Under the pieces are notes generated by a model, which saw only the letters and a list, made by a program, of their open reading frames with translations, searched no databases and was not told the origin of the DNA. From Rubidibacter lacunae KORDI 51-2 (GTDB lineage Bacteria > Cyanobacteriota > Cyanobacteriia > Cyanobacteriales > Rubidibacteraceae), in the NCBI RefSeq assembly GCF_000473895.1, contig NZ_ASSJ01000006.1, forward strand, positions 1 to 64,000: DNA of 64,000 bases, in the 5' to 3' direction. The position numbers were made by a program, and so were the translations under genes. Below are positions 37,318-41,831 of the stretch, piece after piece. The stretch's first letter is position 1. Every line of letters starts with the position of its first letter.

Positions 37318-38258
37318 GGGCTATTTCTACTTTGATATCGGGCGATCGCTATTGAAGAATAGATGACTGAAACAGCTCGTTGGTTGAGGTATAGCCTCGC
37401 TCGGTGAAATAAGGTTCACTAGGAAAAAAATCGAAATTTAAATTTGGGTTGCTTGGCGTGTCCACCACTGATTCGAGCTCCGCTATAATCACATGCAATT
37501 AAGGAGATCTCCGTCCACACGAACGAGCTCTTACCCTTCTGAAAACAGCTTATTTGTTACTCTATCGCGTTCTAGATTGCAAAAATATAGCACTGAATAC
37601 AGGGCACCTCGATAAAATGCGCGATTTTTAGTGCTTTGGCTACTGAAATACCCATGCTGCTGTGCCTACGTTCGGTCTTGAGCGAATTAATCGATGTGCC
37701 CTACAGAATGACTCCAGTTGTTTATCACGAATGTGGAGCCTGAGGTGGGCGATGCAATTTACTGTTACAAAAGCTGGGTCGGAGGTCTTCTGAAGCCGCA
37801 AATTGCATGTCTAGACAGCGGGCGATCGCGTAATTGGACCTCGCAATTGGCTGCGCTCCGAAACCTGCTTGCCAGTATCGACAGTGGTCTGTCCATTGCT
37901 TGTCATCGCCACCAGAACCGGTCCGAGGTATAGCTTGTGCAAGCTCTTACTCGGTTGCTTGGCAGTCAGGGGCTGGTGAGGGCACAACTACGTTCGGCTT
38001 CTGTCGGAGTCGTTGTTATAGGAGTGGTTATCGAGCGAGCGAATCAAATGTTATCAGCATCTGTAGTTCTCGGCCGGCCTCGCGATCTTGGCATCGAGGT
38101 AGGTAGTATATGCTGAGATTGAAATCTGGCATAATCATCTGCACGCCAAAACTACTATTATCTGTACATTACATTGGGCACGAGCAACGTCAAGTAGGGA
38201 TCGAGCAGGGATCGAGTATGGATCGATTAGAGATTAGGAGCTCAGGAGGAGAATCGGG
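37318..38258. other. 940-base gap without a recognised gene
   Basis: Largest non-coding stretch in the window. Only short overlapping frames occur (for example 37718-37933, 37834-38106 and a ~60-codon GTG frame starting about 37937, all plus). None has a family signal. GGATCGAG-like units repeat around 38195-38225. Upstream of the ZIP/cNMP gene lies AGGAGGA at 38244-38250. Confidence 0.4.
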
Positions 38259-40094
38259 ATGTTTGAACCGCTTCTTGTTAAGGCTTTTTTAGCTGGGATA
38301 GTGAGTGCTTGCTCGATGCCTTTGGGTTCTTTGACCGCACTCTACTGGCGTCCGAACAACCAAATCGTTTCCTTTTTGATGGCCTTTGGAGGAGGAGCAT
38401 TGCTGGCGGCGCTGGTGATCGATCTCGTTGGAAGTGCTACGGAGAAGGGACATTTACTAGAGTTGATAGTCGGCGCGATTGCGGGGAGTTTATTGTTTAC
38501 TGCTGCCAATCGAGCGATCAACCATTCTGGAGGCTTCTTACGCAAACCTTCCACAACCCTCGTTCACTTAACTCAGAAGGAGTCGCGTCAATTTGCAGAA
38601 CACCGATCGCGAGTCAAGCGTATCGATCTGTTTCGGGACTTAGAACAGTCCGATCGACAGAAACTCGCACAGTATTTGCTCGTCGACTACCATCCTTTGG
38701 GGACGGTCATTTATCAGCAAGGCGATCCTAGCGAAAGTCTGTACATCATTGAAAAAGGTAGTGTTACCCTGCATGCTCCAGGTTCCAAAGCACAACTGCC
38801 CACTCGTTTGAGTGCGAACGATACCTTCGGTATGATGGCGTTTCTGACGGGTTGCCCTCACCAGACAGTGGCGATCGCGACAACGGCTCTTAAGCTAAAC
38901 ATCCTACCGCGATCGGATTTCGAATCCCTGCTCCAAAGCTCGCCAAGCTTAGTACGAAATACGGCGTCATTTCTACAAAGCGAAGCCGTTGCAGAATATC
39001 TCCAGAAACGTCACGGACTGGGTCTAGCTCGAGTTAGGGAATGGGTCGGATCTAGCGTGCAGAGCTTGGTTCGTGAAAGTGCTATCCCCCCAGCAGTGGA
39101 AGTCACTCACAAACCCGATGAGTTTATTGACATGGCTCACCGAGTGCGCCGGCTGCCGATTTTCAAGCATCTTCCCGCGGAAGACTTACAAAAAATTGCC
39201 GATCGCCTCATCTACTTACAGCGAGATGACGGTCATATTTTCTTCCAGCCCCAAGAGGCATCCGATCGCCTCTACATCATCCATATGGGGGAAGTGGAAA
39301 TTGTCTACCCCACGCACTACCAAAAACCACCCAAGGTCCTAATTGCAGGTGATGTGTTCGGAGAACTGTCCTTTGTTACGAGCGCGACGCATACGGTAAC
39401 GGCGATTGCTAAAACTGATGTCAGCGTTTGGGTGCTGAGAAAACAGTTTTTCGACGAGATACTGCTTCAGTCCCGAATATTGGAAGACAATGTCAGAGAG
39501 TTTTTGGGACAAACAAAGCTTAAGAATTACTTGCAAACCAGACAAAATTTCGAGCCGGCAAAAGCTGGGGAATGGATCCAGAGTGCCATGGCAACCATGA
39601 ATGCCGGTCACCTCATTCCATCGGTAGCCGCAATGACAAATGCTGTTGAGGAACATAAAAATGCCCCCATGGCGATCTGGTTGGGCTTGTTAATCGATGC
39701 TATTCCCGAAGCCCTGACCATTGGCGCGCACCTGGTGACATCTCCGCTGAGTTCATCCCTGCTTGCAGGGTTATTTATTGCCAACTATCCCGAAGCGTTT
39801 TCCAGCTCCCGGGGAATGAGACAGCAGGGATTCTCGCTTTTCCGAATCTTCTTGATGTGGTCGTCAATTATGTTAATAACAGGCATTTTGGCTGCTGTCG
39901 GCGCCGTCGTGTTTACTGACGTTCCAGACGCGCTCGTCTCGCTGTTGGGGTCGATCGCTGCTGGTGCCATGCTGACAGTCATTTCGGAAACAATGTTGCC
40001 AGAGGCTTATGCGATGGGAGGTTCGGTAGTCGGGCTCTCTACAGTGATGGGTTTTTTGATCGTTATCTCGATCGTCCATTTAGCCCCCCACTAA
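38259..40094 (+). CDS. ZIP-like membrane protein interrupted by two cyclic-nucleotide-binding domains
   Basis: The 611-residue protein starts with about three membrane helices (residues 5-85; FGGGALLAALVIDL resembles a ZIP helix). Two cyclic-nucleotide-binding domains follow, at about 120-235 (YQQGDPSESLYIIEKGSV) and 297-415 (FQPQEASDRLYIIHMGEVEIVY, GDVFGELSFV). About five more helices (470-610) follow. The C-terminal half has ZIP-like TM4/TM5 signatures, LLIDAIPEALTIG and FIANYPEAFSSS, but the metal-binding histidines of HNxPEG are missing. It is therefore a ligand-gated relative of ZIP metal transporters, or a sensor. The cNMP domains lack clear evidence for which nucleotide binds. A strong Shine-Dalgarno precedes it. 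Confidence 0.75.
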   Translation: MFEPLLVKAFLAGIVSACSMPLGSLTALYWRPNNQIVSFLMAFGGGALLAALVIDLVGSATEKGHLLELIVGAIAGSLLFTAANRAINHSGGFLRKPSTTLVHLTQKESRQFAEHRSRVKRIDLFRDLEQSDRQKLAQYLLVDYHPLGTVIYQQGDPSESLYIIEKGSVTLHAPGSKAQLPTRLSANDTFGMMAFLTGCPHQTVAIATTALKLNILPRSDFESLLQSSPSLVRNTASFLQSEAVAEYLQKRHGLGLARVREWVGSSVQSLVRESAIPPAVEVTHKPDEFIDMAHRVRRLPIFKHLPAEDLQKIADRLIYLQRDDGHIFFQPQEASDRLYIIHMGEVEIVYPTHYQKPPKVLIAGDVFGELSFVTSATHTVTAIAKTDVSVWVLRKQFFDEILLQSRILEDNVREFLGQTKLKNYLQTRQNFEPAKAGEWIQSAMATMNAGHLIPSVAAMTNAVEEHKNAPMAIWLGLLIDAIPEALTIGAHLVTSPLSSSLLAGLFIANYPEAFSSSRGMRQQGFSLFRIFLMWSSIMLITGILAAVGAVVFTDVPDALVSLLGSIAAGAMLTVISETMLPEAYAMGGSVVGLSTVMGFLIVISIVHLAPH

Positions 40095-40193: not shown

Positions 40194-41831
40194 ATGATGT
40201 CTTCTCCTCGCGCGATCGCCTTCATCGTCGGTCTTTGCTTTGTGCTCGGGCTGGCAATTTGGCTGATCGGCGCTATTTACCAGCTTTACGTCGAGGTATC
40301 GTTCAGCTCCCTACTGCTGGCAAATCTGCTGCTGTTAGTGGTGCTGGTCTTGCTGGGGCTGCTCGTCGCGGCATTCGTTTACTACTTCAATCAAATTTTT
40401 AAGCCTTCGCAGCGATCGCGCCGGCCTGTAGTACGCGCGCCGGAGAAGAAAGCCGAAGCAGCGGGGGTCACGTTGAAAGCAGTACGGCAACAGGTCGGGC
40501 AAATCCAGGACGAAGTGGCGCGTCAGGCTTTGTGGGAGCGATCGCGCGCGATCGAAGCCAACCTGCAGCGGCAGGATCTGCACGTGGTGGTGTTCGGAAC
40601 GGGTTCGGCTGGCAAAACCTCGCTGATCAATGCCTTGATCGGGCGCGTCGTCGGGACGGTCGGCGCTCCGATGGGGACGACCCAAGCGGGGGCGACCTAT
40701 GCTTTACCATTACCTCGCCTCCGTCGCCAGATCTTCATCACCGACACGCCGGGTATCCTGGAAGCCGGTGTCGCCGGTACCGAGCGCGAACGTTTGGCCA
40801 AGCAACTTGCGACCGAAGCCGATTTACTCGTGTTCGTCGTCGATAACGACCTGCGCCAGTCAGAATTCGAGCCGCTCCAGGTGCTGGCTGCAATCGGCAA
40901 GCGCTCGCTGTTGGTCCTCAATAAAACGGATCTGTACGCCCAGCCAGACCGAGAAGCCGTGTTGGCAAGTTTGCGCGCGCGCGTCCGCGGGTTTATCGCC
41001 CCGCAAGACGTGGTGGATGCCGCAGCCGCGCCGCAACCGATGCAGTTAGCCAACGGTCAGTTCGTGCAGCCGGATGCCGATATTGAGGCAACGATCCGCC
41101 GCCTCGCCGAGGTGTTGCGATCGGAAGGAGAAGAACTGGTTGCCGATAATATTCTGTTGCAGGCACAGCGACTCGGGCAAGACGTGCGCGAGTCGCTCGA
41201 TCGTCAGCGCCGCCAGCAGGCCGAACAAATCGTCGAACGCTATCAATGGATTAGCGCCGGGGTCCTTGCCGTAACGCCTCTGCCGGTGGCAGATATGTTG
41301 GGAGCAGCTGCGGTGAATGCTCAGATGGTGGTCGAACTCGGACGCATTTATGGATGCGAACTCAATCTCGATCGCGGGCGCGAACTGGCGCTGTCTTTGG
41401 GCAAAATGCTGGTCAGCTTGGGCGTGGTTAAAGGTGCGCTGCAATTGCTTGCAACGGCACTGCAATTGTCTGTTGCCGGCTATCTTGTAGGCAAAGCAAT
41501 TCAAGGCGTTACGGTAGCCTATCTGACGCGCATTGCCGGGAAGAGCTTCATCGAGTACTTCCGTCAAAACCAAGACTGGGGCGATGGTGGGATGGGCGAA
41601 GTCGTACAGCGTCAGTTTCGCTTGGAGCGGCGCGACGAGTTTGTCAAAGCCTTCGTGAGCGAGGCGATCGATCGCGTTGTCAAACCTCTGACCGTTGCAA
41701 AGCGATCGCCTGAGGACGCTGAGGAACTAATGTCGCCGGCCGAAAATGACGCGCCTAGTCCCGAACTGATTAGTGAGCTTCTAGTCCATGATGACTGGGA
41801 GCGATCGCCGCAGTCCGACCGCGACTGGTAA
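40194..41831 (+). CDS. membrane-associated GTPase with DUF697 domain
   Basis: The 545-residue protein has two N-terminal membrane helices (IAFIVGLCFVLGLAIWLIG; LLLANLLLLVVLVLLGLL), an Era/Obg-like G domain, and a C-terminal DUF697 domain with hydrophobic segments. G motifs are GTGSAGKTSLINALIG (G1), DTPGILEAG (G3) and LNKTDLY (G4). DUF697 begins near ISAGVLAVTPLPVADMLGAAAVNAQM. Such YcjF/slr-type GTPases are widespread in cyanobacteria; their role at the membrane is undefined. It lies 100 bases after the ZIP/cNMP gene on the same strand, but GC and HIP1 use differ. Confidence 0.88.
   Translation: MMSSPRAIAFIVGLCFVLGLAIWLIGAIYQLYVEVSFSSLLLANLLLLVVLVLLGLLVAAFVYYFNQIFKPSQRSRRPVVRAPEKKAEAAGVTLKAVRQQVGQIQDEVARQALWERSRAIEANLQRQDLHVVVFGTGSAGKTSLINALIGRVVGTVGAPMGTTQAGATYALPLPRLRRQIFITDTPGILEAGVAGTERERLAKQLATEADLLVFVVDNDLRQSEFEPLQVLAAIGKRSLLVLNKTDLYAQPDREAVLASLRARVRGFIAPQDVVDAAAAPQPMQLANGQFVQPDADIEATIRRLAEVLRSEGEELVADNILLQAQRLGQDVRESLDRQRRQQAEQIVERYQWISAGVLAVTPLPVADMLGAAAVNAQMVVELGRIYGCELNLDRGRELALSLGKMLVSLGVVKGALQLLATALQLSVAGYLVGKAIQGVTVAYLTRIAGKSFIEYFRQNQDWGDGGMGEVVQRQFRLERRDEFVKAFVSEAIDRVVKPLTVAKRSPEDAEELMSPAENDAPSPELISELLVHDDWERSPQSDRDW

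Follow-up and report, generated by a model that had tools for sequence, protein, structure and literature searches.

A predicted ZIP-fold membrane protein of Rubidibacter lacunae with two cyclic nucleotide-binding domains between TM3 and TM4

Results

The gene and its surroundings

The window analysed, the first 64,000 nucleotides of contig NZ_ASSJ01000006.1 of Rubidibacter lacunae KORDI 51-2 (GCF_000473895.1), carries on its plus strand, at positions 38259–40094, an open reading frame that begins with ATG, has no internal stop and encodes a protein of 611 amino acids. A ribosome-binding site, AGGAGG, lies 9 bases 5' of the ATG (38244–38249, plus strand). As judged from the reading frame, Pfam, an AlphaFold2 model and structure comparison, the protein consists of helices TM1–TM3, two cyclic nucleotide-binding domains (CNBD1 and CNBD2) and helices TM4–TM8, in that order. 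A match in a Geitlerinema MAG has 69% identity to it, and a chance reading frame or assembly artefact is ruled out, since full-length homologues number 20, the site residues are invariant and dN/dS is low.

The neighbours of the gene are a minus-strand methyltransferase-like gene, a DUF697 GTPase and a SulP permease. The DUF697/MMR_HSR1 GTPase (window 40194–41831) starts 99 bases past the stop codon, and the two genes might be co-transcribed in this genome. The GTPase is not a conserved neighbour at homologous loci, and an operon partner was rejected, as flanks of mostly 6 kb held no neighbour family that recurred among divergent homologues. No RNA families were found in the 64,000-nt window, and the yield of a promoter and terminator scan was no higher than expected by chance. 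The G+C content is about 50% in the stretch holding the gene, compared with 55–60% in the adjoining stretches, and the two-CNBD gene is missing from most sampled genomes of the host's own family; this patchy distribution and the contrast in G+C perhaps reflect horizontal transfer. A phage origin was discarded, there being no relative among viral contigs, and so was a plasmid origin, since the plasmid matches listed span only the C-terminal half of the ZIP part or only a CNBD stretch.

Fold of the membrane part

In the AlphaFold2 model, TM1–TM3 (residues 2–89; 38262–38525, plus strand) have the helix limits 2–29, 34–62 and 66–89, and are followed by two CNBD units at residues of about 117–292 and 293–465 and by TM4–TM8 (residues 469–608; 39663–40082, plus strand). 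Two models were made, with mean pLDDT of 75.4 (18 sequences) and 83.0 (25 sequences), the helix limits being those of the latter. For both of them eight entries of BbZIP, the GufA-type ZIP of Bordetella bronchiseptica (PDB 7z6n, 8ght, 5tsa), headed the list in VIA-align, with Z of 23.5–25.9 and spanning model residues 1 to 610; the best superpositions (Z 25.0–25.9) aligned 232 residues at 2.2–2.4 Å, and CNBD structures, with Z of about 15–18 for both domains, stood well below the BbZIP rows. Foldseek alone placed CNBD structures first because they dominate the 611-residue query, an ambiguity that VIA-align resolved.

Profile comparisons pointed the same way, since hhalign of the excised membrane core against seven canonical cyanobacterial ZIPs gave a probability of 97 and an E-value of 6.8e-11. 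The Pfam Zip profile (PF02535) matched the 611-aa protein itself weakly (E 0.13, 11.9 bits, below the gathering cut-off of 35.1); a two-CNBD homologue reached 39.4 bits once its two matches were joined, and 18/18 members of the wider family matched with E-values no higher than 1, the lowest being 1.7e-11. By modelled fold and by profile, the membrane part is thus a ZIP fold. Between TM3 and TM4 Pfam located two PF00027 stretches (E 8e-33), which also adopt the CNBD fold in the model. The initial annotation had proposed precisely this, a ZIP-like fold with two CNBDs inserted between membrane helices 3 and 4, and its reservation that the flanking helices might not be ZIP is answered by the structure comparison and the profile match.

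The predicted transport site

The binuclear metal centre of BbZIP is described by eight residues (PMC9873690). In the alignment M99 corresponds to L48, H177 to D480, N178 to A481 and E181 to E484, and further Q207 to A508, D208 to N509, E211 to E512 and E240 to A545, so that six of the eight are changed, four of these to non-chelating residues. Residues D480 and E484 of TM4 and N509 and E512 of TM5, placed by model, BbZIP mapping and homologues, are invariant in all 20 two-CNBD homologues. BbZIP S106, a proposed metal chelator on the extracellular side (PMC9873690), is replaced in the TM1–TM3 part by D55, as placed by the model and the BbZIP alignment, and Asp is found there in 19/20 homologues.

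The initial annotation had read the two metal-site motifs as IDAIPEA and IANYPEA, with loss of the His ligands at both. The motifs are as quoted (residues 479–485 and 507–513) and neither holds His. In the nearest canonical ZIPs (BbZIP/GufA type), however, His is present only at the TM4 site (HNxPEG), and the TM5 site reads Q(N/D)xPEG with a single exception among those compared, so that just one His that would be expected has been exchanged, for Asp480. Instead of the HNxPEG in TM4 and the M2 Glu in TM6 of a canonical zinc-type ZIP, the protein has D480-A481 and A545, and it is therefore classed with an Asp-type ZIP-like branch and not as a zinc ZIP.

Nor is the missing TM4 His special to this protein. 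Asp in place of His177 marks a branch with members in cyanobacteria, Deinococcus, Haladaptatus and Rhizobium, with and without CNBDs, and the proteins of the latter three genera carry the motif DGIPE, the bacterial ones being annotated as 'ZIP family zinc transporter'. Like the 611-aa protein, the CNBD-less members have DxIPE in TM4 and a motif of NxPE/NxPQ type in TM5; those mapped from other cyanobacteria share Asp177, Glu181, Asn208 and Glu211, are without Glu240, and differ in having no CNBD. Since the His-less site is common to CNBD-less relatives, it is by itself no evidence for a sensor role. The CNBD-less branch is widespread (L013, L014, L016, L018–L020, L112–L114), with DGIPE in TM4 and, in the mapped members, no TM6 Glu240, and part of it bears the zinc transporter annotation despite the missing canonical zinc site. 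One such CNBD-less gene (L017, G099:C1:6658240-6658662) is broken by a TAA stop.

Work on BbZIP regards M1 as the main site and M2 as dispensable (PMC10256678), so by analogy the 611-aa protein may be a transporter with one site made of harder ligands. The retained acidic residues Asp480, Glu484 and Glu512 leave room for a cation site.

The inserted domains

Loop L(3,4) comprises residues 90–468 and contains both CNBDs, and the segment after TM3 holds seven K/R against two D/E, which fits a cytosolic location. According to Pfam, the model and the homologues, CNBD1 with its helical linker (residues 117–292; 38607–39134, plus strand) has the cassette FGMMAFLTGCPHQT (190–203), in which there is no Glu and Arg is replaced by His201, and CNBD2 with its linker (residues 293–465; 39135–39653, plus strand) has the cassette FGELSFVTSATHTVT (367–381), in which Glu369 is kept and Arg is replaced by His378. 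The motif Tyr-Leu-x(13)-Trp is invariant in the linker after CNBD1, and its Tyr and Trp recur after CNBD2. The two units can be aligned over 171 residues free of gaps at 31% identity, and in a CNBD tree copies A and B are sister groups (support 100/98), from which a tandem duplication appears most likely. The same tree gave no tie between the joined copies and the one-CNBD domain (long branches).

Canonical CNBDs hold the ribose by the cassette Glu. The cyclic phosphate is held by the cassette Arg (PMC10959531). Among the 20 two-CNBD homologues this Arg is His in both domains (40/40 domains; H201 and H378 invariant), and the Glu is present in 0/20 of CNBD1 and 18/20 of CNBD2, where the cassette Gly is kept in 20/20; the pair of Arg and Glu that anchors cNMP in PF00027 is therefore incomplete. 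The comparison of ligand-binding residues suggested by the initial annotation thus had a divided outcome, for the one-CNBD relatives keep both Glu and Arg (19/19), whereas the two-CNBD form has His for Arg and, in CNBD1, no Glu. Ordinary binding of cAMP or cGMP by the two-CNBD form is accordingly predicted to be unlikely, and as both domains are without the Arg, they may bind nothing at all. The genome encodes a class III cyclase, so the cell may contain a cyclic nucleotide. As a control, the other CNBDs of this genome include a CRP-like protein with canonical Glu and Arg. Another CNBD, in a 762-aa open frame (L127, G000:C1:113863-114108, minus strand), apparently has His at the place of the cassette Arg (AQSHSTDAV), so this replacement is not unique to the two-CNBD family.

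Distribution and selection

The same domain order, for which a homologue search had been proposed, is recurrent. Genome sampling for the CNBD-bearing forms covered cyanobacteria, and the 20 full-length two-CNBD proteins came from nine cyanobacterial families; in the host's order the gene was present in 17/389 sampled genomes, in 3 of the 17 only as pieces on draft contigs. Alongside stands a one-CNBD version (n=19, about 425 aa) with the domain at the identical place, so that cyanobacterial forms with zero, one or two CNBDs share a single insertion site, which is that of the zinc-sensing loop of BbZIP. In a tree of the ZIP core the two-CNBD rows lay at the base without resolved placement. One- and two-CNBD genes co-occur in some genomes (for example G614, G625, G637 and G831), which suggests that they probably serve different functions. 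In G831 a 136-aa frame with only the C-terminal half of ZIP (L116, G831:C22:331440-331808, minus strand; profile 487–609) lies directly downstream of the full two-CNBD gene, as a partial duplicate or remnant.

Values of dN/dS were 0.04–0.19 throughout the protein, whose four parts were compared separately (for pairs with estimable dS, several of them with dS near saturation), the TM parts being the most conserved and the CNBDs more variable. Such low values indicate, at the level of sequence, that the CNBDs are under maintenance and not decaying. With 20 copies in nine families and low dN/dS in each domain, a chance fusion of ZIP and CNBDs is ruled out.

Discussion

Taken together, the sequences and models favour, with a probability of just under one half, an Asp-type elevator transporter of ZIP fold, probably for a divalent metal, that would be regulated from the cytoplasm by its tandem CNBD module. 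In BbZIP, helices 2, 3, 7 and 8 form the scaffold of the elevator and helices 1, 4, 5 and 6 its moving domain (PMC9873690), and L(3,4), on the cytoplasmic side, carries two His that bind a third metal, at the egress site, and thereby down-regulate uptake (PMC10256678). In the 611-aa protein, by sequence and model, the CNBD pair fills this loop, which runs from TM3 of the scaffold to TM4 of the transport domain, and sensing domains anchored to both halves of an elevator seem suitably positioned to arrest or release it. The pair might bind a small molecule of the cytosol, perhaps a nucleoside or other purine compound and probably not cAMP or cGMP in the ordinary phosphate-anchored pose, with CNBD2 as the likelier site; the ligand would reshape the pair and could so lock or release TM4 together with the transport domain. 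Asp480, Glu484, Asn509 and Glu512 would make up one cation site of hard ligands that takes the place of the zinc site. A bolder proposal, offered tentatively, is that the invariant His pair retools the CNBDs for a signal other than a cyclic nucleotide (a nucleoside, another metabolite, pH or the metal itself), which would gate a ZIP-type ion transporter from the place of a BbZIP-type zinc-sensing loop.

Conceivably cAMP or cGMP is still a ligand of the pair, bound by CNBD2 or with His taking the part of Arg, and the protein is a transporter gated by cyclic nucleotides, as predicted for the one-CNBD relatives with their complete set of Glu and Arg. The near-constant Glu and constant Gly of the CNBD2 cassette and the class III cyclase agree with this, but the Arg is missing from every one of the domains and the Glu from every CNBD1, and in the PKA of trypanosomatids loss of the Arg accompanies a lost response to cAMP (PMC10959531), which makes such gating unlikely. 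No likelier is a pair of CNBDs free of any ligand, serving as a structural or dimerisation module or with the pocket filled by a part of the protein itself, in a transporter that is constitutive or regulated by protein contacts. Loss of both anchors in CNBD1, the Tyr and Trp residues conserved in the linkers and the greater variation of the CNBDs relative to the TM parts would suit this, although the choice of the same residue, His, in place of Arg in all 40 domains points to a kept role of the pocket, and the Glu retained in most CNBD2 also speaks against it. That transport has been lost altogether, with the ZIP fold acting as input or anchor of a membrane sensor, is quite improbable, because the changes in the metal centre, where M99, N178, Q207 and E240 are lost, are set against four invariant site residues, the same site in CNBD-less relatives for which a sensor role has no obvious basis, the strongest conservation in the TM parts, and the lack of an output domain or conserved partner gene. 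The initial alternative between transport of something else and a sensor controlled by cNMP is thereby narrowed: control by cNMP is doubtful with the anchors lost, and the acidic residues of a cation site remain.

Compared with BbZIP, a regulated transporter of the kind favoured here would share the eight-helix fold, both PE motifs and a cytoplasmic regulatory loop between TM3 and TM4, and differ by the replacement of H177 by D480, the loss of M99, Q207 and E240, and the exchange of the His-bearing zinc-sensor loop for two CNBDs. The one-CNBD cyanobacterial proteins share the ZIP core and the insertion site after GGFLRKP, and are set apart by their single, canonical CNBD. Synechocystis slr0593, as far as its annotation indicates, may be a member of this one-CNBD family. 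It is listed as a 'cAMP binding membrane protein', with its transcript down by log2 1.3 at both 3 h and 12 h of iron deprivation (PMC3516471). A co-regulated antisense RNA and repression early in iron deprivation are reported for the gene in the same study (PMC3516471).

The regulatory subunit of trypanosomatid PKA resembles the inserted pair in having tandem CNBDs with the cassette Arg replaced, and cAMP is not its ligand; the loss of the Arg goes with a changed ligand, and purine nucleosides trigger the response (PMC10959531). There, however, a new Glu at the position of Ala202 holds the ribose, whereas the 611-aa protein has Ala/Ser at this position and His for Arg, and the PKA regulatory subunit is a soluble kinase subunit and not a transporter. 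Transport proteins carrying a CNBD are known as the fusions NTT-HEAT-cNBD (PMC5381601) and MFS-CNBD (PMC10710835), and SLC9C1 also combines the two; in these the CNBD is appended to folds other than ZIP (C-terminally in NTT-HEAT-cNBD) and not set into a ZIP loop.

In a full-text literature search, with subscription papers mostly outside it, no paper was found that pairs a cyclic nucleotide-binding domain with a ZIP or Irt-like transporter, and on such a link or on slr0593 it returned only the iron-deprivation study (PMC3516471) and background on transporter fusions. Within that scope the earlier statement that no characterised protein has this architecture still stands. The architecture is real, conserved and apparently undescribed, and it varies the ZIP fold and CNBD-linked transport without constituting a new class.

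The protein offers a natural case of a predicted elevator-type metal transporter whose regulatory loop is a modular sensor, and living relatives with no sensor domain, one canonical domain or two altered domains are available for comparison. It highlights, too, a His-less ZIP branch that is widespread and goes under the name 'zinc transporter' although its site does not match the zinc site. If the proposed gating is true, it would connect ion uptake in cyanobacteria with nucleotide-type signalling and would show how CNBDs act when fixed between the scaffold and the moving half of an elevator.
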